DNA from: a virus
Reading direction: 5' to 3' (one strand)
Length of the DNA: 20,178 bases
IMG/VR virus record: IMGVR_UViG_3300031539_000404
Location: 1 to 20,178 of that record
Shown piece after piece: positions 62 to 20,178 of the stretch. Each line of letters opens with the position of its first letter. The stretch's first letter is position 1. The translations under genes and the position numbers were made by a program. The notes below the pieces were generated by a model. It did no database searches, was not told the DNA's origin, and saw only the letters and a program-made list of their open reading frames with translations.

Positions 62-75
62 AGGAGGGGGTACAG

Positions 76-1151: not shown

Positions 1152-1166
1152 GGAGGGACGATCACA

Positions 1167-1355: not shown

Positions 1356-1356
1356 C

Positions 1357-2245: not shown

Positions 2246-2263
2246 AAAGGAGTCGAATACAAG

Positions 2264-2473: not shown

Positions 2474-2475
2474 CG

Positions 2476-5023: not shown

Positions 5024-5032
5024 GGAGGAATG

Positions 5033-6547: not shown

Positions 6548-6711
6548 ACGCCCTGAGAGAATCCTGCGCGACGAACATGTTCGGCGCTGTCCCACACCTC
6601 ATGGCCGCGTTCGAGATTGAGAAGCGTGAGGCGAAGGCCATCCTGATCGAGTGGATGACCTTCTTCCGGAACGACGAGCCCGACGAGCCCGACGAGGAGG
6701 TGGGCGAATGA
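6520..6711 (+). CDS. small acidic-tailed protein, 63 aa
   Basis: I take the GTG at 6520 as the start because AAGGAGG (6507-6513) sits 6 bases before it. The frame is open further upstream, but that part overlaps the TOPRIM gene and has no ribosome site. The 28-base overlap with the TOPRIM gene implies translational coupling. The protein is helical (VPHLMAAFEIEKREAKAILIEWMTFF) and ends in an acidic repeat, DEPDEPDEE, encoded by a 9-base DNA repeat. I do not recognise the family. Confidence 0.65.
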   Translation: MEDKHRRFLNALRESCATNMFGAVPHLMAAFEIEKREAKAILIEWMTFFRNDEPDEPDEEVGE

Positions 6712-6968
6712 AGGGAAATGACATTCTCAAGCTTTACCGAAGCTGCAACAAGCTCTTCGCAGATTTTCAAGCGCTAACTGAACTTCTCGAGATGCTCAGC
6801 CTAGGGGATCGCATCTGTGGACATCGACACATTCCCGAGGTTCGGGAGCAGAACCTTCACACGCACGTCAACACAGCCCGTGGATACATCAGCGCTGTGC
6901 GTGGATACCTCTTCTACGACATGGACCTAATCGTTGGTGTGTTCGGGAAGGTGGTGGAGGACGAATGA
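6708..6968 (+). CDS. hypothetical helical protein, 86 aa
   Basis: The gene starts at ATG 6708 within an ATGA overlap, after GAGGAGG at 6694-6700. The protein appears all-helical, with a leucine-rich N-terminal helix (ILKLYRSCNKLFADFQALTELLEML), a His-containing loop (CGHRHIPEV) and further helices. It has no membrane segment despite FYDMDLIVGVFGKVV near the end. I do not recognise a family. It is part of the coupled run 6520-7458. Confidence 0.7.
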   Translation: MKGNDILKLYRSCNKLFADFQALTELLEMLSLGDRICGHRHIPEVREQNLHTHVNTARGYISAVRGYLFYDMDLIVGVFGKVVEDE

Positions 6969-7234
6969 CTAGAATGGGAACTGTCGGCAGCCTGTACATG
7001 TACGAAGCAGGTGAGCAGGTACTCATCCGAGGGCGCTACTTCAACTCGAACGGTCACGCTACAGCCATTGTCGCTGTTGTGACCGTCGGAGTTGACTGGG
7101 CCGCCTACATCGGAGAAGCGGATCCCCAGCGAGAGTGGGAGGCATACCCGCATGTGGCAGAGACAGGCAGCAAGCTACTCGAGAAGGATGCACGACACTT
7201 CTTCCCGAACATCGACCTAAGGTACCGATCATGA
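6965..7234 (+). CDS. hypothetical beta-rich protein, 89 aa
   Basis: The start at ATG 6965 overlaps the previous stop and follows GGTGGAGG. The core alternates in a way typical of strands (EQVLIRGRYFNS, TAIVAVVTVGVDWAAYI), so a small beta barrel is likely. The C-terminus is helical and charged. No catalytic motif is visible. The stop overlaps the next ATG (ATCATGAGC at 7228-7236). The function is unknown. Confidence 0.7.
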   Translation: MTRMGTVGSLYMYEAGEQVLIRGRYFNSNGHATAIVAVVTVGVDWAAYIGEADPQREWEAYPHVAETGSKLLEKDARHFFPNIDLRYRS

Positions 7235-7458
7235 GCGGGAGTGGAGAAAGACCCATTCCAGCGTTCAAGGACCTGCTGACCGTCCGACGGATCGTGGGCA
7301 TGATTATCGATGACTTCGAGTACTGCTCGGCGTCGGACCTCGAAGACTGTGTGCGGTTCTTAAAGGCCGAGGCAGACAAGTTGTTCGAGCTACGCGAGGT
7401 CGTAGAGAGGGCTTATACGAGGAGTCTCCTTGCGGAGCAGCTTCGTGGATGCCCATAA
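7231..7458 (+). CDS. hypothetical helical protein, 75 aa
   Basis: The start at ATG 7231 overlaps the previous stop. A modest AAGG at 7218-7221 could serve as the ribosome site. The frame extends upstream to 7135, but only by overlapping another gene. The sequence is helical with an acidic middle (IIDDFEYCSASDLEDCVRFLKAEADKLFELREVVERAY), consistent with a small coiled-coil or helical bundle. No family is recognised. It is the last of the small coupled genes before a 16-base gap. Confidence 0.68.
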   Translation: MSGSGERPIPAFKDLLTVRRIVGMIIDDFEYCSASDLEDCVRFLKAEADKLFELREVVERAYTRSLLAEQLRGCP

Positions 7459-7474
7459 CAAAGGAGGATACTTA

Positions 7475-7837
7475 ATGGCAGGAAAGTTGTGGCGTAAGAT
7501 CGGCCCGTTACATCGAGACGTTGTGCTTCTGGTATCCGAGACCAAAGCCTTTCCCGTGACACAAGAGTTTCCGGACCACTTTGTCTCGTACGAGGAGCAC
7601 CTGGCAGGCGACATATTACTGTTTCACCTCACGGGGCACAGGGAGATCGTCGCGGAGATTGCTCTGGTGAAGATCGCGGACACCGTGTGGGGTCTCACGT
7701 ATTCACCGGCAGCAATCAGAGGGACTGAGACGTTCGAGGCCGAGCTAGTCAGTACGGGTGCAGAACAACGAATTGCGGAGAGCATCCTCAAGGCAGTCGG
7801 CTTTACGATTGTCCAGGAGGAACCAAATGGCCACTAG
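7475..7837 (+). CDS. hypothetical protein, 120 aa
   Basis: A strong ribosome site, AAAGGAGG at 7460-7467, sets the ATG at 7475. The protein is mixed alpha/beta: strands DVVLLVSET and GDILLFHLTGHREIVAEIALVKIADTVWGLTY, then a C-terminal helix (EQRIAESILKAVGF) and a short strand (TIVQEE). The layout is like a compact single-domain enzyme or binding protein, but I see no named motif. Its last 11 bases overlap the start of the PadR-type gene, so it is probably translated with the regulator-phosphoesterase-QueC group. Confidence 0.72.
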   Translation: MAGKLWRKIGPLHRDVVLLVSETKAFPVTQEFPDHFVSYEEHLAGDILLFHLTGHREIVAEIALVKIADTVWGLTYSPAAIRGTETFEAELVSTGAEQRIAESILKAVGFTIVQEEPNGH

Positions 7838-8246
7838 TCAGATCAGGAAGGGGAGTACTACGCCCCTACTGCTTGCCATGCTTGTGGAAGGTACTATGTA
7901 TGGCCACGAGATCCTGAAGAGGCTCAGGGAGCGTAGTGACGGGGCATTCGACATGTCTGGTGGTCTTGCTTACCCGTCACTGAAGAACATGGCAACCGAA
8001 GGTCTGGTCGAGAGCGTTGTGGCAAAAGGACCTGCAGGGCATATGTGCCGTCGCTACACGATCACGGACCAAGGGCTCGAGAGACTTAACGTACTCTGTA
8101 AGGAGTGGGTGGACTTCACAGTTCAACTACACACTACGCTGGGCACAGGAGAAGCCGTAGGAGCCCTGCTCGCCGCCGAATACACTAAACGCGAGATGGA
8201 GCGCGTTTACGAAGAGGGCCCCTTACATCATGTGGAGCCGGCGTGA
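7827..8246 (+). CDS. PadR-family winged-helix transcriptional regulator
   Basis: The start at ATG 7827 follows CAGGAGG (7814-7820). Residues 7-90 match the PadR pattern: RKGSTTPLLLAMLVEG, then YGHEILKRL, a YPSLKNMATEGLVES recognition/wing region and RRYTITDQGLERL. PadR proteins are small dimeric repressors that bind palindromic operators, often controlling their own operon. The C-terminal helices, ending about residue 139, fit the family's dimerisation segment. It overlaps the phosphoesterase gene by one base and heads the unit that includes queC. It may control precursor-synthesis genes, or host genes. I did not identify its operator. Confidence 0.85.
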   Translation: MATSQIRKGSTTPLLLAMLVEGTMYGHEILKRLRERSDGAFDMSGGLAYPSLKNMATEGLVESVVAKGPAGHMCRRYTITDQGLERLNVLCKEWVDFTVQLHTTLGTGEAVGALLAAEYTKREMERVYEEGPLHHVEPA

Positions 8247-8863
8247 TGCAGAAAGTCTTCTTCACTGCAGACGACCACTTCGGCCACACGAACATCATCA
8301 GACACTGTAAGAGGCCGTTCAGGGACGCCTACGCGATGGACCAGGCCCTGGAAGATGCATGGAACGCCCCAGTAGGTCCTGACGACGTAGTGTACCACCT
8401 GAGCGACTTTACCTTACAGGGGTGGCTCGAGGCAAGCAACTACTTCGCACGCCTGAACGGACGTATCAAAGTTCTGAGAAACATAAGTCACCACGACAAG
8501 AGGTGGCTAGAGATGCTCAGGAACGCCGACTCGTTAAACTGTGCTGCCGGCTGGCCTGTTAGCGCCAGCGGGCACCCGATCGAACTGATGGAGCCCCAGA
8601 TAACACTGGAGATCGATGGGAAGGTCATAGTACTTAATCACTTCCCTATGGCTAGTTGGGACAGGAAGCACCGGGGAGCTTGGCACCTCTACGCACACAC
8701 ACATGGCAGGTTCGAGGATGTGGGACTGATGATGGATGTTGGCGTCGACGCCGTAAGCAAGTACGGCTTGCCCCCATACGCACCAGTACCACTTAACGCT
8801 GTAAGGAAGATCATGCAAAGGAGGATCGAGAAGAATGGCTCCTGGGATCGTTTGTCTTACTAG
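8246..8863 (+). CDS. calcineurin-like metallophosphoesterase with atypical motifs
   Basis: The family hydrolyses phosphoesters with a two-metal centre. The protein is 205 residues. The start is ATG 8246, overlapping the previous TGA; a GTG at 8243 is also possible. The opening FFTADDHFGHTNII (D9, H11) and the later NHFP (H132) and AHTHG (H151, H153) fit phage-type metallophosphoesterases. Three usual glycine motifs are altered: LGDF is HLSDF (D54 kept), GNHD is replaced by NISHHD, with His in place of the metal-binding Asn, and GHxH is AHTH. The enzyme may have changed metal use or substrate, or be inactive. It overlaps queC by 29 bases, which suggests coupled translation. The substrate is unknown. 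Confidence 0.88.
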   Translation: MQKVFFTADDHFGHTNIIRHCKRPFRDAYAMDQALEDAWNAPVGPDDVVYHLSDFTLQGWLEASNYFARLNGRIKVLRNISHHDKRWLEMLRNADSLNCAAGWPVSASGHPIELMEPQITLEIDGKVIVLNHFPMASWDRKHRGAWHLYAHTHGRFEDVGLMMDVGVDAVSKYGLPPYAPVPLNAVRKIMQRRIEKNGSWDRLSY

Positions 8864-9566
8864 TGGGGGTATCGACTCCACTACAATGCTCTACTGGCTA
8901 CGCAAGTGGCGCCCGCAGTACTTGCCGCTTGTCGCGCTGTCCGTCACGTACGGTCAGAAGCACAACAAGGAGGTGATTGCCGCTGAGAAGATCGCGAACG
9001 CTGCCGGCGCACAGTTCAGGTCAGTTGACATCAGTGGTGTGGGTGCACTTCTCAAAAGTGCTTTGACAAGAGACTACATCGAGGTGCCAAAGGATGAGTA
9101 CACTAGCGCCACCCTGGCACAGACGGTAGTGCCTTCCCGCAACTTGTTGTTCCTGGCCCTTGCAGCGGGGCTAGCCACCTCACTCGACATGCACCGTGTT
9201 GCAATAGCGGTGCACGCAGGGGACCACCCCGTCTACCCGGACTGCAGGCCGGCGTTCCTGCATGATGCTGAAGGGGCACTCCAGCACTACGACCGCCTGA
9301 TGACAATCTTCGCCCCGTTCAAGCACGTTCCCAAGGAGGGGATCGTTCTCGTTGGTCTTGAGCTCGGTGTACCCTTCGAGTTAACGTGGAGCTGCTACGA
9401 GGGGAATGAACGTCCGTGCCTTAGGTGCTCCACATGCGTAGAGCGTACAAAGGCCTTCATGAGTTGCCACACGACGGACCCAGCGCTTAGCCGGGCGGAG
9501 TGGTCTGTAGCTGTAAGCGTCGTGCGCACCAAGCAGCCCGGGGAGCAACTTCGTTTCGAACTCTAG
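8835..9566 (+). CDS. queC: QueC, 7-cyano-7-deazaguanine (preQ0) synthase
   Basis: QueC uses ATP and ammonia to convert 7-carboxy-7-deazaguanine, through an amide, to preQ0. PreQ0 is the precursor of queuosine in tRNA and of 7-deazaguanine bases in some phage DNAs. The protein is 243 residues, close to bacterial QueC length. The PP-loop is TSGGIDSTT (9-17). Other family motifs are VPSRN (99-103), a VHAGDHPVYPDCR block (126-138) and the zinc-binding C187-x7-C195-x2-C198-x2-C201. All key residues are present. It is a stand-alone QueC without the amidotransferase domain of Gat-QueC. AGGAGG at 8819-8824 supports the start. The partner DNA transglycosylase lies at 16684. FolE, QueD and QueE are not in this window. 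Confidence 0.95.
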   Translation: MAPGIVCLTSGGIDSTTMLYWLRKWRPQYLPLVALSVTYGQKHNKEVIAAEKIANAAGAQFRSVDISGVGALLKSALTRDYIEVPKDEYTSATLAQTVVPSRNLLFLALAAGLATSLDMHRVAIAVHAGDHPVYPDCRPAFLHDAEGALQHYDRLMTIFAPFKHVPKEGIVLVGLELGVPFELTWSCYEGNERPCLRCSTCVERTKAFMSCHTTDPALSRAEWSVAVSVVRTKQPGEQLRFEL

Positions 9567-9574
9567 TTGCTCAC

Positions 9575-9603
9575 TTGTATTCTGCTTCAAAGTAGTTCAT
9601 AAT
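9575..9603 (+). promoter_or_regulatory. candidate sigma70-type promoter
   Basis: TTGTAT (9575-9580) and CATAAT (9598-9603) are separated by 17 bases. This lies just after queC in the 137-base gap before the acidic HTH gene. The -10 matches consensus at five of six positions and the -35 at four. The rest of the gap holds one hairpin (9654-9672) and the AAGGAGG ribosome site. Confidence 0.5.
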
Positions 9604-9653
9604 TTAAGCAGGATGAAAACATGCTCCCAGATGTAAGAGGAGCAAGAGCACCG

Positions 9654-9672
9654 AGCCACTCAATGGGTGGCT
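9654..9672 (+). promoter_or_regulatory. stem-loop in the leader of the acidic HTH gene
   Basis: AGCCACTC-AAT-GGGTGGCT folds into an 8-bp stem (one G-T pair) with a 3-base loop. It lies between the candidate promoter and the AAGGAGG of the gene at 9704. There is no T-run after it, so it is not a classical terminator. It could affect mRNA stability or translation. This is inference from the sequence only. Confidence 0.35.
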
Positions 9673-9703
9673 ACAATGTAGGAACCCTTAAGGAGGGTGA
9701 ACA

Positions 9704-10285
9704 ATGGACGAGAACGAAGTTTTGGAAGTGGAAGTGGAAGTGGAAGTGGAGGGCGCGGAAGAGTCTGACGCGCCCAAGTATGAGGAACTCGCCGCGCAGG
9801 GCTTGCTTCCTCTCCGAGCAGCGGCCGCGTTGATGGGCATCAGCGCTGCATGGTGTCGCCGGATGTGTCGTGAGGAACGGATCGATCACGTTCGCACGGA
9901 CAAAGATCGCATCTTCTTCACGATGGAGACGATCGAGCAGTTCAAGGTCACTCAGGTCGGCAAGGTCACAGGCTTGCGGAAGAAGGGTCAAGGATACGTC
10001 CCCGCCAAGATCACAGGCGCGAAGGCCCTGTACGCAGCCGTCATGGCCGCCTCCTTCATCCCCGGAGCTGAGAAGCCCATCGTCCTGAAGTGGGTCGATC
10101 ACTTCGCCTCGACCTGGGTCACGGAGCGTGTAACGGCTATCGAAGCCAAGGCGAACGAAGAGCCGGGCGACGAACCGTGCGACGAACCGTGCGACGAACC
10201 TGCTGCCGGCACCGAGCCGAAGGCCGCACCTGTTGCCACGCCTGAGCCTGTTGCCGATCTCGGCAGCTTCGCACCGCCCGAGTAG
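9704..10285 (+). CDS. acidic helix-turn-helix DNA-binding protein, 193 aa
   Basis: The start at ATG 9704 has a perfect AAGGAGG (9690-9696). The N-terminal 25 residues are a Glu/Val repeat encoded by four copies of GGAAGT. Residues about 34-85 look like an excisionase/MerR-type helix-turn-helix (LLPLRAAAALMGIS, then a recognition helix AWCRRMCREERI and a wing-like DRIFFTMETIEQF). The C-terminus is Pro/Glu/Asp-rich, again with a short DNA repeat (DEPCDEPCDEP), and is probably disordered. It stands alone between two control regions. A phage DNA-binding regulator is likely, but its sites are unknown. Confidence 0.72.
   Translation: MDENEVLEVEVEVEVEGAEESDAPKYEELAAQGLLPLRAAAALMGISAAWCRRMCREERIDHVRTDKDRIFFTMETIEQFKVTQVGKVTGLRKKGQGYVPAKITGAKALYAAVMAASFIPGAEKPIVLKWVDHFASTWVTERVTAIEAKANEEPGDEPCDEPCDEPAAGTEPKAAPVATPEPVADLGSFAPPE
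9724..9747 (+). repeat. GGAAGT hexamer repeat, four copies
   Basis: Four perfect tandem copies of a 6-base unit encode an EVEVEVEV-type tract in the acidic HTH protein. Copy number can vary by slippage, changing protein length in steps of two residues without breaking the frame. Confidence 0.9.
10167..10200 (+). repeat. 12-base in-frame repeat, nearly three copies
   Basis: GCGACGAACCGT is repeated twice in full, then 10 bases of a third copy follow. It encodes the DEPC-type repeats in the C-terminal tail of the acidic HTH protein. It lies within a coding frame, so iteron function is not implied. Confidence 0.85.
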
Positions 10286-10336
10286 CCAGCGGCTACACCC
10301 ACAGCAAGCGAGAGGGAGGCCACAAGCCTCCCTCTC
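10282..10336 (+). terminator. hairpin pair after the acidic HTH gene, likely terminator
   Basis: Two hairpins follow one another. GTAGCC-AGC-GGCTAC (10282-10296) overlaps the stop codon. A second, at 10310-10336, has a perfect 11-bp stem (GAGAGGGAGGC/GCCTCCCTCTC) and a 5-base loop. The second is GC-rich and strong, but no T-run follows it. It may act as a terminator, as a barrier to 3' exonucleases or as a processing site. It separates the queC side of the window from the replication operon. Confidence 0.55.
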
Positions 10337-10349
10337 ATGCTGTCCAGAG

Positions 10350-10377
10350 GGCAAACAGCCTTCGAATGCCGTTTGCC
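10350..10377 (+). promoter_or_regulatory. 28-bp imperfect palindrome, candidate operator
   Basis: GGCAAAC and GTTTGCC are perfect 7-base arms, symmetric about a central TTCGAA at 10361-10366. The whole is 28 bases and ends three bases before the -35 box of the next promoter. A dimeric winged-helix regulator would read such a site. The ArsR-like protein encoded just downstream is the simplest candidate. PadR (7827) or the HTH protein (9704) are alternatives. Confidence 0.6.
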
Positions 10378-10380
10378 ATC

Positions 10381-10409
10381 TTGACATTTCCCTCAGAACA
10401 CATTATAAT
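10381..10409 (+). promoter_or_regulatory. consensus sigma70 promoter
   Basis: TTGACA (10381-10386), a 17-base spacer and TATAAT (10404-10409) match the bacterial consensus exactly. The predicted transcription start is near 10416, giving a leader of about 25 bases before the ATG at 10442. It should be a strong promoter for the replication operon, read by the unmodified host polymerase and held down by a repressor at the adjacent palindrome. Confidence 0.88.
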
Positions 10410-10441
10410 TAGGGGGAGGATAGTCAAACACAGGGGCTCGC

Positions 10442-10741
10442 ATGAAACTACTCCAGTTGAATGACCTACAGAGAATAGGTAATCTACTCGCCTCTCCACA
10501 CCGTATGCGGATTGTCGAGCTGCTTGCTATGGAGGCACAGGGCCCCGGAGCGTTGTCTCGGACGCTGGAGAAGAGCACGACTGCAACAACACGGCAGATC
10601 AAGATGTTGGAAGACGCAGGACTTGTTACACGTACTGACATCCCCAACAGTGTCGGACGCGCCACAATAGCGACACTGAACCTCGAAGAAATCCACAGAC
10701 TTGTACAAGAGGCCCAAGCCTGGGTGGAAGGACTGTCCTGA
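10442..10741 (+). CDS. ArsR-like winged-helix regulator, 99 aa
   Basis: The ATG at 10442 follows AGGGG (10432-10436). Residues 13-80 fit the ArsR fold: the GNLLASPHRMRIVELL opening helix pair, GALSRTLEKSTTATTRQIKMLEDAGLV as the helix-turn-helix, then the wing TRTDIPNSVGRATIATLN. No cysteine metal sensor is seen, so it is not a typical metal-responsive ArsR. It is the first gene after a consensus promoter and a palindrome, a common arrangement for an autorepressor. It leads into the nuclease-ATPase-primase operon, so it may time replication. Direct binding is inferred. Confidence 0.82.
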   Translation: MKLLQLNDLQRIGNLLASPHRMRIVELLAMEAQGPGALSRTLEKSTTATTRQIKMLEDAGLVTRTDIPNSVGRATIATLNLEEIHRLVQEAQAWVEGLS

Positions 10742-10744
10742 ATA

Positions 10745-11758
10745 ATGACATACTACGTACACATATCCGACATACGTGCGTTCCAGAACTGTCGCGTACG
10801 TTGGCACTTTTCGAGTCCCCACAGGATGAACTTCGAGCCACGTGTTCCCTTCACGCCGTTCTTCCTCGGTCGTGGGGTGCATAAGGCCCTCGAAGACCAC
10901 TATAGCGAGGGCATACCTGCTGCTACCGCGTTCATTAGGTGGACCGCGACAGCAGTGCTCGAGCTTGAAGATGTCGAGATGTCCGACGACAAGCGCGCGG
11001 AGCTCATGGAGAGCGTTGTGCTTGGTGCTGGCATGTTAGCCCACTACGATATGTGGAGTGCAGCACGAGATGCGGAGTTCAAGATGCTCCGGCCTGAGTA
11101 TACGATCCACGTGCCTTTGGGCTTTAGTGTGGATGGTAGGGAGGTCTTCTTCGCGGGCCGAGCCGACGGTGTTGTTGAGGACACCAAAGGAGACCTCTGG
11201 CTGAAGGAGTTCAAGACAACCGCTCAGATGGGTAGCTTCAATCTCGAGTACGATAGTCAAGCATACGCCTACCTCCAGGCTGCCAGAATCTCCCCGGACT
11301 TTCCGATTCCAGATCGCAAGCCTGTAGGTACCATCTTCACGTTCCTACGCAAGAAGGTTCCCAACCGCCCGGACGTGATCACTCGTGGGCTGTCGAAGAA
11401 CAAGCGACAGGGCACCTCTTACCACTACTACATGAAGGAGATCGTGGACAGGGGCCTGAACCCTGGAGACTACACGGAGATCCTCGCGCACCTTAAGGAG
11501 AATGTACCGTATTTTGTCCGCGAGAGGCTCCGTCCATCGGGTCACGCGCTACAGATTCAGTGGGAGAACCTACACAAGGTTGCACGCGAGATGCTGGATC
11601 CGCATGTTCCAATCTATCCCAACACCTTTGGGTGGCAGTGTAAGAGCTGTATCTTCAGGGAACCTTGTCAAGCCGTATGGCGCGGTCTGGACCCCTGGCC
11701 ACTGCTACAGACCGACTACCGCGTAAGACCCTCAAGTGCTGAGGAGGTAGAGGAATGA
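10745..11758 (+). CDS. PD-(D/E)XK nuclease, Cas4/RecB-like, with iron-sulfur cysteines
   Basis: This is a 337-residue nuclease of the Cas4/AddB type, which trims DNA ends using Mg. The N-terminal ISDIRAFQNCRVRW supplies the first cysteine (C16). The core motifs are H46 in GRGVHKALE, D141 in GRADG, the E155-x-K157 in LKEFKTT and the YDSQAYAYLQA helix (about 169-179). The last three cysteines are C299, C302 and C308 (CKSCIFREPC). Four cysteines split this way hold a 4Fe-4S cluster in the family. It starts at ATG 10745, three bases after the previous stop, and overlaps the Sak4-like gene. The context points to recombination-dependent replication. Confidence 0.9.
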   Translation: MTYYVHISDIRAFQNCRVRWHFSSPHRMNFEPRVPFTPFFLGRGVHKALEDHYSEGIPAATAFIRWTATAVLELEDVEMSDDKRAELMESVVLGAGMLAHYDMWSAARDAEFKMLRPEYTIHVPLGFSVDGREVFFAGRADGVVEDTKGDLWLKEFKTTAQMGSFNLEYDSQAYAYLQAARISPDFPIPDRKPVGTIFTFLRKKVPNRPDVITRGLSKNKRQGTSYHYYMKEIVDRGLNPGDYTEILAHLKENVPYFVRERLRPSGHALQIQWENLHKVAREMLDPHVPIYPNTFGWQCKSCIFREPCQAVWRGLDPWPLLQTDYRVRPSSAEEVEE

Positions 11759-12570
11759 CAGACGTAGAAGTTCTGGCTCTCGAAGACATAGATGTTGAGG
11801 AGTCTGAACCAGAACCAGAACCAGAGCCGGCGCAGGAGAAGATGTCTCAGAACATTCTCTCGACGCATCCCCCACATGTGGACGCGCGCTTCCTGAGTGT
11901 TCTGATCACGGGGCAGCCTGGGGTAGGCAAGACAGTGCTCGCATGCTCAATCTGCGACCTCCCGGAAGCACTCCCTGTGCTTGTGCTTGACTGCGATGGG
12001 GGCCTAATGAGTGTCAGGGACAAACCCCTACAGGTCCATACGATGACGCAGACCTCGGCACTCGACAAGGTCATCTGGGCCTATAAACAGGGAAAGGCCC
12101 CATGGGGAACGGTTGTCCTAGACTCCCTGACCGCATACTACCTTATGCTTCTCGAGGAGATAGGCAGAAAGAGAGGTGGACAGAGAGACGAACCAAACCA
12201 ACTACAGGACTACCAGAAGGCACTGATCATGGCGCGGAGACAGATCCGGCAACTTATCGCTTGTCCCTGTCACGTCATGGTCCCCGCGCTGGAGTACACC
12301 CAGCAGGACGATCTCACATCTACAGTCAGAACGGCCCCGGCCGTACCTGGTAAGTTCGCGTACGAAGTAGCCAAGTACTTCGACATTCACGGGAACCTGA
12401 TTGTAGCCATGAAGGGGAAAGACCGCTCACGTGTGCTGACAGTTCAACCGTCAAGGCGGTTCCAAGCCAAGGACCGGACTGGGCTCTTCGAGGACGAAAT
12501 CGTCTCCCCGAATATGAGCCAGATAGTAGCCGAGTATATCGGCAAACTCAATCCCCAAAAGGAGAAATAG
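11755..12570 (+). CDS. RecA-like AAA ATPase, Sak4-type
   Basis: The protein is 271 residues. An acidic N-terminal tail (EPEPEPEP, from a GAACCA repeat at 11806-11829) precedes the ATPase core. Walker A is GQPGVGKT (53-60), a strand LPVLVLDCDGG follows, and Walker B is VVLDS (D123). The DEPNQLQDYQKALIMARRQIRQL helix and the tail (RFQAKDRTGLF) match phage Sak4/RadA-like single-strand-annealing ATPases. Sak4 proteins promote strand annealing with phage SSB. The gene downstream, a DUF669-like protein, is a common neighbour. The start is ATG 11755 (ATGA). Confidence 0.88.
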   Translation: MTDVEVLALEDIDVEESEPEPEPEPAQEKMSQNILSTHPPHVDARFLSVLITGQPGVGKTVLACSICDLPEALPVLVLDCDGGLMSVRDKPLQVHTMTQTSALDKVIWAYKQGKAPWGTVVLDSLTAYYLMLLEEIGRKRGGQRDEPNQLQDYQKALIMARRQIRQLIACPCHVMVPALEYTQQDDLTSTVRTAPAVPGKFAYEVAKYFDIHGNLIVAMKGKDRSRVLTVQPSRRFQAKDRTGLFEDEIVSPNMSQIVAEYIGKLNPQKEK

Positions 12571-12572
12571 CA

Positions 12573-12992
12573 ATGCCACAGATTCATGTCAACCTGGCCG
12601 GTGTAGCACAGGAAGCAATGCCGGAAGGTTACTACCCCGCGATCGTTTCAGAAGCGAAGATAGGTACCTCGCGTGCCGGGAAGCCGAAGCTCGAGGTCCA
12701 CTTCGACATCATGCAGGTGGGTTTCGAGGGTCGCAAGGCCTTCGCGAACTACAGCTTGCAACCGCAGGCGCTATGGAACCTGCGCCGCTTCCTGAAGGCA
12801 CTTGAGCTCGACTTCGATCTCGATGGAGAGCTGGAACTCGACACCGATGACCTTCTCGGCGCGGAAGTCACTTTGCTCATGGAGCAACAGGAGTGGGAAG
12901 GTGAGATGCGTAACAGCGTCCAGCGTGTCTTGCCCGCAGGTATGGAATCAGGCCCTGAAGCCGCCGGCGAAGAGGGAATAGCAGACTGGTAG
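12573..12992 (+). CDS. DUF669-like protein, possible ssDNA-binding partner of Sak4
   Basis: The protein is 139 residues. It resembles DUF669 phage proteins: a G(Y)YPAIVSEAKIGTSRAGKPKLEVHFDI strand region (residues 19-45), GFEGRKAFANYSL, then LWNLRRFLKALELDFD. The end is a charged, acidic tail (EAAGEEGIADW), typical of SSB-like proteins, where it recruits partners. DUF669 proteins are commonly encoded beside phage recombination ATPases, and an OB-like ssDNA-binding role is plausible but not shown here. The start at ATG 12573 follows AAAAGGAG at 12557-12564. Confidence 0.75.
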   Translation: MPQIHVNLAGVAQEAMPEGYYPAIVSEAKIGTSRAGKPKLEVHFDIMQVGFEGRKAFANYSLQPQALWNLRRFLKALELDFDLDGELELDTDDLLGAEVTLLMEQQEWEGEMRNSVQRVLPAGMESGPEAAGEEGIADW

Positions 12993-13021
12993 GACCCTGA
13001 TACTCAAGAGGAGTGCACCCG

Positions 13022-15562
13022 GTGGAACTGGCCTTTTTTACACTGCTATTCCGGGGCCTCCGTCCTGACGAGTATGTTGCCATCAAGGCCCTATCAGGGG
13101 GGAAGGCCACACACTACTACCCTAAAAGCCCCAGAGAGATCGTCGATCTCGTGGAGAGACTACATCTTCCAGGGGTTAACTTGTACTTCGGTGTCTGCCC
13201 GCGGAATGCGTGTGCGGCAACGAAGGAGGCCGTATCCCGCGCCTTGTGTGTGTGGCTTGACCTAGACGTCAAGGACCACCAGGAAGGGAAGAAGGAACTT
13301 CTAGAGTACGTACGCGCAACGTACGTCTTACCTCCGACGGCTGTTGTTGATTCCGGTAACGGCCTCCATGTATATTGGAGTCTCCGAAGCTCAACGACGC
13401 GGAACACTGCGGAGGTACTAGCGAAGAGTATGGCAGGCCATCTCAAAGGAGATCGGGCTGCAACAGACTCATCTAGGTTCCTTCGTGTTCCGGGTACAAC
13501 CAACTGGAAGGATCCGGAGAAGCCCCTCCCGGTGGTCCTTGTGACGTTACAAGAGGAAAGGCAATACACACCAGACGACCTGAAGGCAGGCTTCAACGTA
13601 CCTGCATCGCTCATCGAGCGTATACACACGGGAAGCACAGAAGGATACGAATCTAGGTCAGAACGTGACTGGGCAGTAGTGCGTGCTCTCATCAGGGCAG
13701 GGATCAAGGAAGACGACGTACTTACCCTGTTCTCCGAGAACCCGATTGGCGATAAGCTTCGGGACGCATCGCCGCAGGGCGGCGAGACATACTTCGCCCG
13801 CACCCTAGAACGTGCTACAACGAGTGCACAGGTACCAGCGACCTTTACGGAGGTACACGATTGCTACTACCTACCGGATCGTGAGAAGCAGCGACAGGTC
13901 TCGACGTTTGTATACAAGCCGACCCGCCTACTTGAAGGCCCTGGGGGAGATATACTATCTGGTACGATGAAGGCCTCCGGGTACACGTGGCCAGATGTGG
14001 CACTAACCCGCGCGGCCTTCGCAGGCAGTTCCGCTTTGATCAGAGAGCTACCGTACGCAGCATGGCAGTGGCTTGGATCTGATCGCGAAGCGAAGATGCT
14101 GCTTCCACATCTCATGCAACAATTACTGGACGTCGGGCTACCAAGAGCGGTAGCAACACACACGATCGGCAGACACGAAGACTACTTCGTGACTGCTGAT
14201 CGCGTGCTCACGGCTGACAGTGTGCTTTCGCCTGAGGAGGCTCCGTACCAGTACGTACCAACAGGACGTGAAGCCCCAGAGATCACAATCACGTTCCCGT
14301 CCGCAGATAACTATCGTGCGTTACTACGTGACATTGCAGAACTGCTGCCGAAGGTAAATGTGCCTCACGTAGTGTTCCCAGTGTTTTCGTGGTTCATGGC
14401 AGCACCTTACAAAACTGTACTTAAGGAGCGTTGTTCAACGCGCTTCCCGACACTCAACATATACGGTACACGTGGGGCTGGCAAGACGAGTTTGCTACTT
14501 GAGATAATGCAGCCTTTGTTAGGGTGCACACCACACTCGTACTCATGTGCCACAACACCCTTTGTGCTTCTCTCGTTGCTGGCGAGTACGAACTGCATCC
14601 CGATAGCGTTCTCGGAGTTCCGGAGTTCATCGCTATCCGAACAGACGTACTCGAAGCTCATGCGGTATATCCTACTTGCATACGACGTAGGTCGCGATGC
14701 GCGAGGAAGACCAGACCAAACGACAACCATCTATCCTCTTGATGCACCCTTTTCAATAGATGGCGAAGACGCCTTAGGAGAACCTGCGGCCATCGAGCGT
14801 GCGATCATCGTAAACCTGGCGCCAGAGAACATCATGCAGGGTTCGGAAGCGTTCGACGCTTTTCAGAAGATCACGAAGCTTCCTCTGAAGGACTTCGCAG
14901 GGCACTATCTGCAGCACACGCTCAAGTTCGACGTTCATCTGGCCCTGGAGGAAGCACATGCGATTGTGCGCGGAGCTCTTTCCCGCACACTGCCTGACAG
15001 GGTGTACAATAACCTTGTTGTCTGTGTCGTAGGATACATAAGCGTACTGCAACACTTCGCTAACTGGGGCGTCGCGTTACCAGATATCGACGCTACATCC
15101 TTCGGGTGTTGGTTTGACGCGCCGACGCAAGATGCAGTTGCCATGGAGCGTGGACGCACGGCAATGCACGTCGACGAGTTCATTACGGATGTCATCAACG
15201 CCGTTGCCAGCTCAGGTACCACAGAAGTGTTCATGTTCAAGTACAAGAGGACACAGAACGAGCTCTGGTTCCACACGGCCACCGCGGTTAGGTGGTGGTT
15301 CGCGAAACGTAGACGCGAAGGGCTCCCAGCCATAGGCGAGCTCGCTGTGAAGCGCCAGCTAAGAGAGCGTGCCATAGGAGACATCCCAAGTCCAGGACAG
15401 TACTTAGTTGGGAGTACTACACAGAACATAGGGGGCAAGAGCATACACATGTGGGGCATTAGTGTGCAGGCCGCGTACGATTGCGGGTTGGACATCCCAC
15501 AACAACTCGACATCCAGCATGTGACACTTAGCTTTACGTCCCAGGGCAAGGAGGACGAATGA
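13022..15562 (+). CDS. primase-helicase fusion: archaeo-eukaryotic primase plus P-loop ATPase
   Basis: The GTG at 13022 has GAGGAG (13008-13013) 8 bases upstream. A GTG at 13013 overlaps that site, so I reject it. The protein is 846 residues. The N-terminal ~195 residues look like an AEP-type primase: CVWLDLDVK (D80, D82), VVDSGNGLHVYW (H116), then D149 and a RFLRVPGTTNWKDP block. A linker and P-loop ATPase domain follow, with Walker A GTRGAGKTS (482-490) and a Walker B-like IPIAFSEF. The remainder is helical. The arrangement resembles RepB-like primase-helicase replicases that start DNA synthesis and unwind it. It sits between the recombination genes and the modification genes. Confidence 0.85.
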   Translation: MELAFFTLLFRGLRPDEYVAIKALSGGKATHYYPKSPREIVDLVERLHLPGVNLYFGVCPRNACAATKEAVSRALCVWLDLDVKDHQEGKKELLEYVRATYVLPPTAVVDSGNGLHVYWSLRSSTTRNTAEVLAKSMAGHLKGDRAATDSSRFLRVPGTTNWKDPEKPLPVVLVTLQEERQYTPDDLKAGFNVPASLIERIHTGSTEGYESRSERDWAVVRALIRAGIKEDDVLTLFSENPIGDKLRDASPQGGETYFARTLERATTSAQVPATFTEVHDCYYLPDREKQRQVSTFVYKPTRLLEGPGGDILSGTMKASGYTWPDVALTRAAFAGSSALIRELPYAAWQWLGSDREAKMLLPHLMQQLLDVGLPRAVATHTIGRHEDYFVTADRVLTADSVLSPEEAPYQYVPTGREAPEITITFPSADNYRALLRDIAELLPKVNVPHVVFPVFSWFMAAPYKTVLKERCSTRFPTLNIYGTRGAGKTSLLLEIMQPLLGCTPHSYSCATTPFVLLSLLASTNCIPIAFSEFRSSSLSEQTYSKLMRYILLAYDVGRDARGRPDQTTTIYPLDAPFSIDGEDALGEPAAIERAIIVNLAPENIMQGSEAFDAFQKITKLPLKDFAGHYLQHTLKFDVHLALEEAHAIVRGALSRTLPDRVYNNLVVCVVGYISVLQHFANWGVALPDIDATSFGCWFDAPTQDAVAMERGRTAMHVDEFITDVINAVASSGTTEVFMFKYKRTQNELWFHTATAVRWWFAKRRREGLPAIGELAVKRQLRERAIGDIPSPGQYLVGSTTQNIGGKSIHMWGISVQAAYDCGLDIPQQLDIQHVTLSFTSQGKEDE

Positions 15563-16302
15563 ACAGTTCTTTGAGGGTCACCATACCAAAAAGGATGTGC
15601 ACTGGAGGGCACACAATGTTCGGAAATCACAGCAGCAAGCAAAGTAACAGGCTGATCTGGACGGTCGTTGCGCTGGTAGCTGCGTACATCTCACTGCAAG
15701 TGTTCGCAGATATCATGGCGACGAAGATGGTAACGGTCTGGAAGTACGTCGTTCCAGGCGGCACGTTGGTATACGCCTTCACGTTCACAGTACGTGACCT
15801 CGTACACAAGAAGCTGGGCAAGCGATGGGCCCAAGCGTGCATCGTGGTCGCCGGCGCAGTGAACGTCTGCATGGCGCTTTTCTTCCTGTGGCTTGTGAAG
15901 ATGCCCTTCCCGCCCTTCTGGGCGAACCAGGAAGCCCTCACGGCCATACTGCAGCAAGTTCCGCGGATCGTGTTGGCTAGTATCGCCGCCGAGATGGTGA
16001 GTGAGTTCGTCGACACAGAAGTTTACCAACTGGTCTGGAAGAAGCTGGGCAGGCGTTACCAGTGGGCACGCGTAGCGGCTAGCAACGGCGTCAGTGCGCC
16101 CTTAGACAGTATTGTCTTCGCCCTGCTTGCGTTCGGCGGCGTATTTCCGACCGCTGCGCTCGTGGAGATGATCATAGGCCAAGTACTGCTGAAGTGGCTG
16201 ATTGGTCTGATCTCACTACCAACGATCTACCTCGTCAAAGAGGGGAAGGGAGTGGAGGTAATCAATGTTGAATGTCGAAAAGCAGCTTGCTGCACAGATT
16301 GA
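15559..16302 (+). CDS. yhhQ: YhhQ-family queuosine precursor transporter (VUT/ECF-type)
   Basis: YhhQ proteins import preQ0/preQ1. The protein is 247 residues with about six membrane spans (residues 34-50, 65-80, 92-113, 134-150, 185-203 and 205-226). The family positions ADIMATKM, YAFTFTVRDLVHKKLGKRWA and the later ASNGVSAPLDSIVFALLAF are recognisable. Two starts are possible. ATG 15559 overlaps the primase stop and has AAGGAGG; ATG 15616 has GGAGG. I favour the first. Import would supplement or replace the QueC route. The 3' end overlaps the Nmad1-like gene by 38 bases, so the two are probably coupled. Confidence 0.82.
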   Translation: MNSSLRVTIPKRMCTGGHTMFGNHSSKQSNRLIWTVVALVAAYISLQVFADIMATKMVTVWKYVVPGGTLVYAFTFTVRDLVHKKLGKRWAQACIVVAGAVNVCMALFFLWLVKMPFPPFWANQEALTAILQQVPRIVLASIAAEMVSEFVDTEVYQLVWKKLGRRYQWARVAASNGVSAPLDSIVFALLAFGGVFPTAALVEMIIGQVLLKWLIGLISLPTIYLVKEGKGVEVINVECRKAACCTD

Positions 16303-16624
16303 GGCAGCGTTCGAGGAGTCAAGACAAGCCCTCATGGTTTCCGCAGACGTACTGTGGAAGGGTAAGGGTGAGGCATACGACACCGAGGTGAGCATCGTGC
16401 AGCGCCTCCCGCTCGGGGAGATGAGCCTCGTGCATGAGCTCGTTAAGAAGACGCGGCGCCTACAGGGTGAGTTCGCCACTGGCGTACTCGAGTCCCTGAT
16501 GTCGGAGACGGTTGAGGAGCAACTCCTGGACGTCGCCAACTACGCAATCGCACTCGCCGCGTACATGAGAGTCACAAAGAGGCTGTCCGAAGTGACTCTC
16601 CAGCTTAAGAAGACTACTACGTAG
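16265..16624 (+). CDS. Nmad1 (DUF1599)-like protein, nucleotide-modification associated
   Basis: The start is ATG 16265, preceded by GGAGG (16253-16257). The protein is 119 residues and all-helical. The pattern (K34-GEAYD, then ELVKKTRRLQGEF at 58-70, and EEQLLDVANYAIALAAYM at 84-101) fits the Nmad1/DUF1599 domain: a K...YD helix, a KxxRL helix and a D(V/L)xNYA helix. Nmad1 is known by gene context as a companion of modified-base systems, with unclear activity; NTP-pyrophosphatase folds are an alternative. Its position between the transporter and the DNA transglycosylase supports a role in base modification. Confidence 0.62.
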   Translation: MLNVEKQLAAQIEAAFEESRQALMVSADVLWKGKGEAYDTEVSIVQRLPLGEMSLVHELVKKTRRLQGEFATGVLESLMSETVEEQLLDVANYAIALAAYMRVTKRLSEVTLQLKKTTT

Positions 16625-16633
16625 CCACACTGT

Positions 16634-16667
16634 GTGTAGGCTGTACTCACCGGGGTACAGCCTACAC
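16634..16667 (+). promoter_or_regulatory. 13-bp perfect stem-loop before dpdA
   Basis: GTGTAGGCTGTAC and GTACAGCCTACAC pair over 13 bases, with an 8-base loop (TCACCGGG). The stem lies in the 59-base gap between the Nmad1-like gene and the DpdA-like gene, ending just before the AGGAG ribosome site (16671). It has no T-run, so it is an atypical terminator at best. It may instead be an RNA processing site or a translational control. Confidence 0.6.
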
Positions 16668-16683
16668 TCCAGGAGACAAACAC

Positions 16684-17457
16684 ATGAAGGCCGCAATTAT
16701 TGCGCCTACCGCAATGCTCGAGAGGTACTCGACGCTTACGGACACCCACCTCGCTCTCGCACACCTTGTGCTTAGCAATAAGACGTACAGGGAGTTCTAC
16801 AAGGGACGCGCTGCAAAGGGGGACTTCGTCACTGTTGATAACTCCCTAATTGAGCTGGGGGAGCCACTGCCCTTGGAAGACGTAATTAGGGCTGCTAAGA
16901 TGATAGATGCCCAGGAGATCGTCCTGCCGGATGTCTTCGCGAACTGCGTGGAGACCCTCAAGGTTACCATGGCCGCATATAGAGAGATTGTGGCGTCACC
17001 TGACCTCACGCGCTTCAAGTGGATGGCTGTGCCACAGGGAAGAAACGCCCTGGGCTGGTTCTACAGCTATTGGGTGTTCAGCAAGCTTCCCGAGATCACC
17101 ACGATCGGCATCGCGAAGCACACGGAAAGGTTTAGCAAGGGAGGCCGGCCAGCACTACTGGGTGCGCTCGCAACAACCGAGTCCTTGGCGGTTGAGAAAG
17201 CTCACCACCTCTTGGGTTGCTGGAGCAACCCGACTGAGGTCCTCAAGTGCTCCAAGCGCTTCAGGTGGCTGCGGAGCGTAGACTCGAGCATCGCAGTGCT
17301 TGCCGGTCTCGAAGGTAAGCCTTTCCCCGACCCCATTCGTGGTATCGAGTTCGAACGGCCGGAGAAACCGATGGACTTTGACGCAGTAGACGACCCACAC
17401 CCAAACATCACAATGAGGAACGTAAAGCTCTTCATCAGGTGGAGCAGAGGAGTATAA
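16684..17457 (+). CDS. dpdA: DpdA-like DNA guanine transglycosylase
   Basis: DpdA enzymes are TGT relatives that swap guanine in DNA for a 7-deazaguanine base such as preQ0. The protein is 257 residues, shorter than tRNA TGT. The probable motifs are D52-N53 in FVTVDNSLIELG (general acid-base region), LPD (81-83), VPQGR (116-120), IGIAKH (141-146), HLLG (175-178) and RSVDSS, with D200 as the likely nucleophile. The zinc-binding cysteines of tRNA TGT are absent, in line with phage DpdA types. ATG 16684 follows AGGAG at 16671-16675. The polymerase gene starts 4 bases later. Assignment rests on motif order and neighbours, so the substrate is inferred. Confidence 0.83.
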   Translation: MKAAIIAPTAMLERYSTLTDTHLALAHLVLSNKTYREFYKGRAAKGDFVTVDNSLIELGEPLPLEDVIRAAKMIDAQEIVLPDVFANCVETLKVTMAAYREIVASPDLTRFKWMAVPQGRNALGWFYSYWVFSKLPEITTIGIAKHTERFSKGGRPALLGALATTESLAVEKAHHLLGCWSNPTEVLKCSKRFRWLRSVDSSIAVLAGLEGKPFPDPIRGIEFERPEKPMDFDAVDDPHPNITMRNVKLFIRWSRGV

Positions 17458-17461
17458 TAAG

Positions 17462-19765
17462 ATGGTCAAGTTACCGCACGCGCGTTGTGGTAGTTGTCCT
17501 CTAAAAGACACGCCTCTAGTACCCGGCGAAGGTCCTGTGAAAGCAGAGTTCGTTCTGGTAGGAGAGGCCCCAGGTCGCGAAGAGGCAAGCGCCCGTAGAC
17601 CTTTTGTAGGACAGGCAGGCAAGCTGCTGGATAAGATTCTTGTTGGTCTGGGAATTGATCGCGAGGAGCTGTACATAACAAATGCCATCGCATGTGGCGG
17701 TACGACGACGACATACAAGGAAGCCGCACCCTACTGTCGTGACCGATTGTTAGCGGAGATTGACGGTCGCAAGCCACGTGTCGTAGTAACCTTAGGAAAC
17801 TTACCCACCAGCGTACTTCTAGGCCCGAGCTATGCGACAGGCGTTACGAACTACCGGGGCAAGTTTGTAATGCACGATGCCCTCAACTGCTGGGTGTTGC
17901 CAACGCTTCACCCAGCCGCTGTGCTACGCAGGCCGAGTACGTTCGACGACTTGTGTGCAGACTTACAGAAGGCGTTTACTACAACGGAATACGAACCGAA
18001 GCCGTTTAAGTGGTACGTCTGTCAGACGGGGCAAAACGCCCTCGTTGTACTTGACCACATCTACGACAAGGAGACGGAGGTCGTCTTCGATCTCGAGACA
18101 TCAGGCTTCAACAGGCAGGAAGATGACATCCTATGTTTGGTCCTCTGTTGGCGTTCGGACCTAAGCTACGTCATTCCACAGGGGGTACTGGAGCAACCTG
18201 CTGTGCAAGCGCGCTTGTGCACCCTTATGGTGGAGCGCCCCGACATCAAGTGGATCGGGCACAGCGCAAAGTTCGACGCAGAGTTCCTGAAGAGCCGTTA
18301 CGGCTTCCGTCCTGTGATCTACTTCGACACACTTTTGGCACACTACTGCACAGAGGAGCGGAGCGGTACGCACGACCTCAAGAGCATTGCGGCGAACCTC
18401 TTCAACGCACCCGACTGGGAAGGAGACCTAAAGCAGCACCTCAAGAAGCCGCGTACAGACTCATATAGTATGCTCCCGAAGGGTGTGCTGTATAAGTATG
18501 CCGCACACGACGGAATCTACACGTACCTTCTGTATCGCCATTTCCAGGGGGTTCTGGCTAAGGAGCCTAAGCTCAAGAAACTACATGACGATCTCCTCGT
18601 ACCAGCGGCCAATGCGCTCGTGGACATCGAGCTCTATGGAGTGCGTGTCGATCCTGCACACCTCAAGCAGTTGGAGAAGGACTACGCTAGAGATATCGAG
18701 GACTTGGGAGCACAGCTGGAGGTCGCTGTCGGTAGGCCAATCAATGCGAACTCCCCGAAGCAGGTCGCTGAGTACCTGTACGACGAGTTACAGCTGCCCC
18801 AACCCTTCGGGCGTACAACAAAAAAGGAAGCAATGGAGATTCTCGCTCCAATGCACCCTGTGCCGCAGATGATCGTCGATATTCGGCATGCAAAGAAGAT
18901 GCTCAAGACATACGTTATTGGTCTGCAGGAGCTTGCAGACAAGCACGACCGTGTACACACGTCGTTCCTCCTTCATGGCACGACGACAGGAAGGCTGTCC
19001 TCCCGTGGCCCGAACCTCCAGAACATTCCGCGTGGGCAGAAGTTACGTGACTGTTTCATTGCCTCAGAAGGACACACCCTAATCGATTGCGACTATGGTC
19101 AGCTTGAGTATCGCATTCTGGCTGTGCTTGGTAACGACGAGTACATGCTCAAGTGTTTCCGTGAAGGTCGAGACTTCCACACGGAAACTGCACTCCTCTT
19201 CTTCGGGGAAAACCACACAAGTGAAGACCGAATGATCGCTAAGATGGTGAACTTCGGTATTGCCTATGGACGCGGCGCAGCAAGTATGGCTGCTGACCGT
19301 AACCTGAACATGACATTCCGTGAGGCACAGGCGTTTCTACGTAGTCTATTCGACCAACGTCCTGGCGTAGCGCGATATACGCGGGAGACACCCAAGAAAG
19401 CATTCACCACTGGAGTACTCGAGAGCTTCTTCGGGCGCAAGCGTCGCTTCGGTCTTGTCTCTGGGGTCAACATGAAGGAAGTCAAGACCCAGGCGCTCAA
19501 CTTCCCAATACAGAGCCTGGCGTCGGACATCACACTCATGTCGCTGCTCTACCTACATGATACTCTGGAGCACGCACGTATCCTGTTGACCGTTCACGAC
19601 AGTATCCTGCTCGAAGCTCCCGATGAACACGTGTATACCGAGGCATCACGTATCAAGAAGGTGATGGAACTGATACCCCGGAAGCGCTTCAGCGATGTCG
19701 TCGATTTCCCGGTCGATATAAAAGTCGGTAAATCATGGGGGAACATGTCAGAATGGGCTCCCTAA
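17462..19765 (+). CDS. polA: uracil-DNA glycosylase / family A DNA polymerase fusion
   Basis: The protein is 767 residues. Residues 1-175 are a family 4-type UDG: iron-sulfur cysteines C9, C12, C78 and C92, GEAPG (34-38) and the TLHPAAVLR motif (H150). Residues 205-365 are the 3'-5' exonuclease (D210/E212 in FDLETSG, D272, and D350 in YAAHD). The polymerase follows: TTTGRLSSRGPNLQNIP, motif A DYGQLEYR (D544), motif B AKMVNFGIAYG (K594, F598, Y602) and motif C VHDS (H712, D713, S714). Motif A has Gly for the usual Ser, and motif C has Ser for the usual Glu. It replicates phage DNA, and the UDG part may scan the template for uracil or another base. Its 3' end overlaps the HNH gene. Confidence 0.94.
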   Translation: MVKLPHARCGSCPLKDTPLVPGEGPVKAEFVLVGEAPGREEASARRPFVGQAGKLLDKILVGLGIDREELYITNAIACGGTTTTYKEAAPYCRDRLLAEIDGRKPRVVVTLGNLPTSVLLGPSYATGVTNYRGKFVMHDALNCWVLPTLHPAAVLRRPSTFDDLCADLQKAFTTTEYEPKPFKWYVCQTGQNALVVLDHIYDKETEVVFDLETSGFNRQEDDILCLVLCWRSDLSYVIPQGVLEQPAVQARLCTLMVERPDIKWIGHSAKFDAEFLKSRYGFRPVIYFDTLLAHYCTEERSGTHDLKSIAANLFNAPDWEGDLKQHLKKPRTDSYSMLPKGVLYKYAAHDGIYTYLLYRHFQGVLAKEPKLKKLHDDLLVPAANALVDIELYGVRVDPAHLKQLEKDYARDIEDLGAQLEVAVGRPINANSPKQVAEYLYDELQLPQPFGRTTKKEAMEILAPMHPVPQMIVDIRHAKKMLKTYVIGLQELADKHDRVHTSFLLHGTTTGRLSSRGPNLQNIPRGQKLRDCFIASEGHTLIDCDYGQLEYRILAVLGNDEYMLKCFREGRDFHTETALLFFGENHTSEDRMIAKMVNFGIAYGRGAASMAADRNLNMTFREAQAFLRSLFDQRPGVARYTRETPKKAFTTGVLESFFGRKRRFGLVSGVNMKEVKTQALNFPIQSLASDITLMSLLYLHDTLEHARILLTVHDSILLEAPDEHVYTEASRIKKVMELIPRKRFSDVVDFPVDIKVGKSWGNMSEWAP

Positions 19766-20178
19766 AACGTTGTAGTAAGTGTAAGGAAACGAAGCCGCAT
19801 ACGGACTTCCACAAGAACCGCTGCACCTTGGACGGGCTGCAGGACTGGTGTAAGACATGCTTCCGCAAGGGTCAGCAGACGAAAAAAGGACGCGAACGTC
19901 AGTGGCGTGCAAACCACTCAGAGAAGGGGCGCGCTACACATGAGCGCTACCTAGGTTCCGAGAAGGACAAAGTAGTCCGTAGGCGCTATGAGGCATCCGA
20001 GAAGGGACGTGCTGCACGTAAGCGTTTCAATGCGACTAAGAAAGGTCGCGCGATGTATCAACGTAGCTGCGCCAAGAGACGTGCGGTGCTTGAGGGTTCT
20101 GAAGCGACCTTGACTGCAGAAGAGTGGTCCGAGATCAGAGCAGAATACAAGTGTTGTCCGTACTGTGGAGAGCTGTTT
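19753..20178 (+). CDS. HNH endonuclease, N-terminal part, cut by the window end
   Basis: The start is ATG 19753, overlapping the polymerase stop by 13 bases. The first 142 residues are visible. They include two CxxC pairs in CSKCKETKPH and CKTC, then basic repeats (SEKGRA, KKGRA) and the CPYCGELF start of an HNH domain. The arrangement matches the gene at 537, for example DGLQ(V/D)WCK and WRANHSE. The catalytic residues lie beyond base 20178. Homing endonucleases often sit next to phage DNA polymerase genes. The gene is partial only because the window ends. Confidence 0.88.
   Translation, partial: MGSLKRCSKCKETKPHTDFHKNRCTLDGLQDWCKTCFRKGQQTKKGRERQWRANHSEKGRATHERYLGSEKDKVVRRRYEASEKGRAARKRFNATKKGRAMYQRSCAKRRAVLEGSEATLTAEEWSEIRAEYKCCPYCGELF

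Follow-up and report, generated by a model that had tools for sequence, protein, structure and literature searches.

A predicted 7-deazaguanine DNA-modification system with a CP220-like transglycosylase and a precursor transporter in an uncultured phage

Altered guanines are a known means by which phages shield their DNA from bacterial restriction enzymes. In the Mycobacterium phage Rosebush and the Escherichia phage CAjan, FolE, QueD, QueE and QueC together with DpdA, and without an amidotransferase, give 2'-deoxy-7-cyano-7-deazaguanosine (dPreQ0), according to PMC6884629, a 2019 source in which Campylobacter phages were still counted as lacking DpdA. PMC8306585 reports that the Campylobacter phages CP220 and CPt10 have 100% of their deoxyguanosine (dG) replaced by 2'-deoxy-7-amido-7-deazaguanosine (dADG) and that NCTC 12673 carries deoxyinosine. 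A locus of this kind is described here on the virus record IMGVR_UViG_3300031539_000404, positions 1 to 20,178; the window is this whole stretch of 20,178 bases, with a G+C content of ∼56%. Its gene content points, with a probability of roughly 85%, to a 7-deazaguanine DNA-modification system in which 7-cyano-7-deazaguanine (preQ0) would be both synthesized and imported and DpdA would insert it into DNA as a shield against restriction, dPreQ0 being the expected base and dADG the main alternative. A first-pass annotation of the window had proposed such a system: the DpdA-type fold and queC stand, queD, queE and folE are added, and the label Nmad1 for a small neighbouring protein and the supposed rarity of import combined with synthesis fall away.

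Genes for the synthesis of preQ0

The genes that make up the predicted system are the following.

8835-9566, plus strand: QueC, 7-cyano-7-deazaguanine (preQ0) synthase, stand-alone (Pfam, TIGR00364, PDB, motifs)
15559-16302, plus strand: predicted YhhQ/COG1738-type queuosine-precursor transporter (Vut_1, TIGR00697, hydropathy)
16684-17457, plus strand: predicted DpdA-type DNA guanine transglycosylase, a barrel of the tRNA-guanine transglycosylase (TGT) fold (model, conserved residues, neighbourhoods)
L006:5867-6265, on contig G001 beyond the window end: QueD (PTPS, 1.5e-25)
L006:6525-7139, on G001: QueE-like radical SAM protein (Radical_SAM, 1.6e-11; best NCBIfam match QueE, 2.1e-23)
L006:7130-7756, on G001: FolE (GTP_cyclohydroI, 5.4e-38)

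QueC matches Pfam PF06508 at 1.3e-56 and the QueC structure 3bl5 in the PDB at 3.7e-19, and it exceeds the TIGR00364 equivalog cut-off (160 bits against 150.3). The PP-loop and cysteine motif, previously described as intact, are indeed so: SGGIDS stands at residue 10 and CYEGNERPCLRCSTC at residue 187. The Pfam match spans residues 5-210 of a 243-residue protein and so appears to leave no room for a Gat domain; this check rests on the QueC protein itself, separate Gat genes not having been searched for. QueC was detected in 9 of 13 records screened, in D479 and contig G005 through partial or split matches, and was not found in the remaining four (phi19:2, MA9V-3 and contigs G006 and G007).

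The remaining pathway genes lie outside the window. Contig G001 (IMGVR_UViG_3300031578_005720; 51,066 bases) is 100% identical to window positions 25-4607 and 4691-19900, the last 278 window bases being outside the query used. Since this contig runs beyond the window end, the window is, judging from sequence identity, a fragment of a larger virus; G001 may itself be incomplete and absences in it are to be read accordingly. On G001, queD, a queE-like gene and folE follow in a row about 5.8-7.7 kb past the window end and meet the Pfam cut-offs for PTPS, Radical_SAM and GTP_cyclohydroI. They were overlooked in the first pass because the window ends too early, and their position just beyond it makes the central reading stronger than could then be known. 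A virus without the remainder of the preQ0 pathway is rejected by their presence: one virus appears, by homology, to encode FolE, QueD, QueE, QueC, the transporter and DpdA. In the same 51 kb, QueF gave one signal, on the FolE gene and below the cut-off, and the ArcS domain DUF5591 was not found.

Gene content, conserved residues, fold and subfamily are read from sequence and a structural model; the use of DNA as the substrate, the identity of the base, how far replacement goes and the protection would follow by analogy with CAjan, Rosebush and CP220. PreQ0 would be made from GTP by FolE, QueD, QueE and QueC, and, when precursor is available, a YhhQ-type transporter would bring more of it in across the host membrane. 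DpdA would then exchange guanine for preQ0 in phage DNA through its conserved aspartates, presumably after replication. The product would be dPreQ0, and the altered DNA would resist host restriction enzymes or nucleases.

Fold, residues and subfamily of the transglycosylase

The protein encoded at 16684-17457 receives no family name from Pfam, NCBIfam or PADLOC; its best PHROG, 20335 (9.2e-15), is without function, and PDB sequence searches returned nothing relevant. By tblastn it matches 18 phage records, four of them from immuto phages, where the annotation reads 'DNA guanine transglycosylase'; most of its relatives are labelled hypothetical. A scan with the Youna2 DpdA gave no relatives and one with the DpdA of contig L020 gave only itself, and the genome contigs searched held no relative of DpdA and none of YhhQ.

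The fold is indicated by an AlphaFold2 model built from seven sequences, with a predicted local distance difference test score (pLDDT) of 83.8 and a predicted template modelling score of 0.84 (the five models range from 83.8 to 58.4 in pLDDT). Its eight strands follow barrel order. In Foldseek, 16 PDB rows reach E ≤ 0.001, and five of these are TGT or QTRT1/2. A second look with VIA-align, which is a reordering of Foldseek's own matches, lists tRNA-guanine transglycosylases in 50 of 50 PDB entries (Z 17.5-17.9), the best row being a TGT with preQ0 (Z 17.9, 234 residues, 3.5 Å); among viral models in BFVD, the best match is a phiST protein (TM 0.83). The structural comparison with TGT suggested earlier is thus borne out by the model, which places the protein in the TGT fold.

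The two aspartates singled out in the first pass, D52 and D200, are invariant together with D83 and H175 in all 12 rows of an alignment, A7, which includes the window protein. The same four residues are kept in five homologues aligned later (CP220, Bakedbeans, L022, L025 and L026). A7 leaves out these five, three of which (L022, L025 and L026) nearly duplicate L021 and L024, judged by match or score; one protein per group was used, with further Bacillus, Cellulophaga, Flavobacterium and other tblastn records unaligned. In hhalign, a seven-row profile matches the DpdA proteins of CAjan, MS1 and phiFN37 at E 1.2e-5 and pairs D52, H175 and D200 with D63, H187 and D206 of CAjan, whose H187 may correspond to position 196 of the 9g protein; the 12-row profile gives 8.3e-5. 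The CxC..C motif, the zinc motif of tRNA TGTs, is absent.

The neighbourhoods point the same way. Annotated folE, queD or queE genes accompany the DpdA homologue in six of the eight named neighbourhoods viewed: Youna2, phi19:2, BSTP12, immuto, D479 and MA9V-3. Youna2 has queC as well, D479 a GTP cyclohydrolase only, and BSTP12 queC, queD and folE, the gene at its queE position being annotated GTP cyclohydrolase 1. On contig L020 the order by eye is queC-queD-queE-folE-dpdA-polA.

Several results weigh against this interpretation. Foldseek ranks four non-TGT barrels above TGT, and 986 of 998 realigned chains reach Z 8 or more, so the barrel as such is common. The single E. coli TGT is not significant by hhalign (E 0.31), and no residue-by-residue transfer of D52 and D200 onto TGT numbering was possible. 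Six records that carry these genes give no match to the Pfam TGT model; CAjan DpdA is likewise without a Pfam match. In Bakedbeans and CP220, the remaining two neighbourhoods, the stretch viewed has no annotated que gene. The NCBIfam equivalog cut-offs are missed by QueD (74.6 bits against 89.25), QueE (82.9 against 200) and FolE (115.7 against 181.6), and the relative CP220 carries dADG rather than dPreQ0.

The subfamily was examined by running the A7 profile on seven records: CP220, HVTV-1, CAjan, 9g, MS1, nt-1 and NCTC12673. It matches CPT_0056 of Campylobacter phage CP220 at 5.0e-46 and finds no match in CAjan, 9g, MS1, nt-1 or NCTC12673; HVTV-1 gives weak pieces only (E 0.027 and 0.145), which are left uninterpreted. 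Conversely, a three-protein CAjan-type profile matches CAjan and MS1, both its own members, and 9g, with nothing in the other four records. A tree of 16 proteins, which carries a long-branch warning, splits 13 from the three CAjan-type proteins at 100/100. The 13-protein clade contains the window and CP220 proteins in different branches. One group inside it (99/100) is made up of phi19:2, MA9V-3, the G006 protein and L024, which nearly duplicates the G007 protein. By these comparisons the window transglycosylase does not belong to the CAjan/9g/MS1 type (DpdA1), with which a remote profile similarity remains. Nor does it belong to DpdA2, the type of Vibrio phage nt-1: nt-1 is unmatched and H175 is present, a histidine that DpdA2 lacks according to PMC6884629. 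It groups with CP220, for which NCTC12673, left unmatched, is the negative counterpart: the two serve as positive and negative control because PMC8306585 gives dADG for one and deoxyinosine for the other.

As the transglycosylase is CP220-like, near-total replacement of guanine becomes a testable possibility: the same system would work with a CP220-type enzyme that replaces nearly all dG, by dPreQ0 or dADG, and not a fraction as in CAjan. The profile match, the 100/100 split and the complete replacement reported for CP220 (PMC8306585) speak for it; extent is not a feature of sequence, and the window and CP220 proteins are only 21-26% identical and sit in different branches of the clade. Near-total replacement is tentative and rather less likely than not. 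A narrower version, in which most or all genomic guanine would become dPreQ0 and a full-replacement transglycosylase would be coupled to its own precursor importer, is rather doubtful. Cui et al. in 2023 (Nucleic Acids Res.) reportedly gave the name DpdA3 to the CP220 type, as the subfamily with which replacement can be complete.

Precursor supply and the inserted base

The gene at 15559-16302 had been called a YhhQ-type transporter, and sequence comparison agrees: the product matches Vut_1 at 7.2e-36, exceeds the TIGR00697 equivalog cut-off (109.1 bits against 50.95) and shows hydropathy peaks. Read by eye, translation might instead begin at 15616. A tblastn search with the transporter returned 25 phage records. 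The combination of import and synthesis in one phage, presented earlier as the unusual part, is preceded by MS1, CAjan (gp41), HCTV-16, Vid5 and EC151, and its novelty is rejected on that account; CAjan also matches Vut_1, below the cut-off.

The transporter might be a passenger in a virus that has the whole pathway and needs no import, its gene being recently gained or on the way to being lost. A close relative (G002/L008), whose DNA is 86% and 79% identical on either side, lacks the transporter at this place: its primase stops at 4836 and the next gene starts at 4852, with 15 nucleotides between them. Moreover, of 15 screened records that carry a DpdA of this type, several being fragmentary, Vut_1 was found in G001 only. 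Against this, the reading frame is intact, the score lies above the family cut-off, the composition resembles that of the neighbours, and the pairing of transporter and synthesis recurs in unrelated phages. A passenger role is accordingly somewhat unlikely, and a contribution to precursor supply is preferred.

QueC works through 7-amido-7-deazaguanine (ADG), and insertion of this intermediate, or of another product, would yield dADG in place of dPreQ0. In favour of this outcome, the enzyme is kin to that of CP220, whose DNA carries dADG (PMC8306585), and the pathway scheme of PMC6884629 includes ADG. The relatives of QueC point elsewhere: the 30 best of 276 records are phage proteins of Arthrobacter, Mycobacterium (Mycolicibacterium) and Rhodococcus, 43-48% identical and annotated QueC-like, and the DNA of Mycobacterium phage Rosebush contains dPreQ0 with little dADG (PMC6884629). 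Insertion of ADG is on these grounds unlikely, and dPreQ0 remains the expected base.

It is very improbable that the que genes and a TGT-like protein serve to raise queuosine in host tRNA instead of modifying phage DNA: such boosting is raised in PMC6884629 for phages with pathway genes but without DpdA, and here a DpdA-type protein lies 4 nucleotides from a DNA polymerase gene, belongs to a clade that includes the CP220 protein and lacks CxC..C, with neither QueF above cut-off nor an ArcS domain in 51 kb.

Neighbouring genes and known systems

The que and dpdA genes of the window sit amid a replication cassette, and further features surround them.

8835-9566, plus strand: QueC, followed by two small putative regulators
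10745-15562, plus strand: replication cassette with a PD-(D/E)XK exonuclease, a Sak4-like ATPase, a DUF669 protein and a primase
16265-16624, plus strand: 119-residue protein of unknown role, kept in L008 (82% identical)
16622-16683, plus strand: predicted stable RNA hairpin in the gap that immediately precedes dpdA (fold z -4.3)
17462-19765, plus strand: fusion of a family-4-type uracil-DNA glycosylase (UDG) domain with DNA polymerase A (PF00476, 1.6e-87; PF03167, 2e-24)

The 119-residue open reading frame (ORF) had been labelled Nmad1-like. The identification is rejected: the DUF1599/Nmad1 match is not significant (E 0.13; 13 bits against a cut-off of 25) and the structural model failed (pLDDT 48), so that a MazG/Nmad1-like nature is possible at most. 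Its other matches are phrog_1485, of unknown function (5e-4), 15 phage records at E 5 to 8 and, among viral contigs, only the G001 copy. Pyrophosphohydrolase genes occur near dpdA elsewhere, a MazG at L010:10528-11115 (phi19:2, 4.8e-6) and a phosphoribosyl-ATP pyrophosphohydrolase (PRA-PH) at L012:7171-7695 (immuto, 3.1e-10); the 119-residue ORF might be a diverged counterpart of these.

At the corresponding position (5215-5296) the relative L008 also folds into a hairpin, with another sequence (z -4.4), and in neither case did any of 200 shuffles prove as stable. The hairpin is possibly a regulatory element or a processing site; with no Rfam match upstream of dpdA or yhhQ, a known riboswitch is rejected for both. 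Downstream, the UDG-polymerase gene starts 4 nucleotides after dpdA, and the dpdA-polA order is conserved in Youna2 and BSTP12. The UDG domain stands in front of the family A polymerase, and L020:7030-9429 looks by eye like the same fusion.

A P-loop or nucleotide-kinase-like gene adjoins this kind of dpdA in five phages, the matches in Youna2 and BSTP12 being weak.

L009:11339-11890: Youna2
L011:11282-11845: BSTP12
L010:11412-11909: phi19:2
L055:5494-6036: CP220
L033:6723-7268: D479

As a guess, these neighbours might handle the displaced guanine or modified nucleotides.

Elsewhere in the window, similar cysteine-rich ORFs containing KGRA lie at both ends (438-1151, an HNH endonuclease, and 19735-20178), and positions 906-1131 match G001 19957-20182 at 66%. 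Between the two identical pieces (window 4607-4691 against G001 4568-4583) the offsets differ by 99 bases. Positions 5030-6547 encode a 505-residue protein without significant family match, in which a toprim-like stretch, DYDYDGETV, is seen by eye, and 9704-10285 a putative helix-turn-helix protein; simple repeats (EVEVEVEVE and GDEPCDEPCDEP) occur within the latter. Relatives of the primase turned up only in G001 and L003. The 16 four-letter palindromes counted in 20 kb have observed/expected ratios of 0.69-1.23, without clear avoidance and too little to use.

The components and their combination already have precedents. What this locus adds to 7-deazaguanine DNA modification is an example from an uncultured phage, with a transglycosylase tied by sequence to that of a phage reported to be without normal dG; the subfamily is what the first pass could not see. 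Two close relatives, one with yhhQ and one without, also offer a natural comparison of the conditions under which importing preQ0 benefits a phage able to make it.

Among known systems, Enterobacter phage EC151 and Pantoea phage Vid5 likewise pair a preQ0/preQ1 transporter with the biosynthesis cluster, as published. They differ in that the EC151 paper places Vidquintavirus, to which Vid5 would belong by its name, among the Gat-QueC genera. Campylobacter phage CP220 (Firehammervirus) has a homologue, CPT_0056, with D52, D83, H175 and D200, but it differs in its reported 100% dADG (PMC8306585), in having no Vut_1 gene and in the low identity already mentioned. Streptococcus virus MS1 carries queC-queD-queE-folE-Vut_1-dpdA, six genes in one compact run with a CAjan-type DpdA, whereas in the window virus queC, yhhQ-dpdA and queD-queE-folE are spread over ∼19 kb. 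Escherichia phage CAjan (Seuratvirus), with dPreQ0 in its DNA, has the same set of functions (FolE, QueD, QueE, QueC, DpdA and a putative, Vut_1-like preQ0 transporter) and also Cas4-like exonuclease and Sak4 genes; its DpdA is of another subfamily and its transporter falls below both the Vut_1 and the TIGR00697 cut-offs. Weizmannia phage Youna2 and Bacillus phage BSTP12 hold the closest named DpdA relatives (31-32%). In these two the que genes stand together between primase and dpdA, there is no Vut_1 gene, and a P-loop-like protein, which in Youna2 has no similarity to the 119-residue ORF, precedes dpdA; the order of the replication cassette and of dpdA and polA is as in the window.

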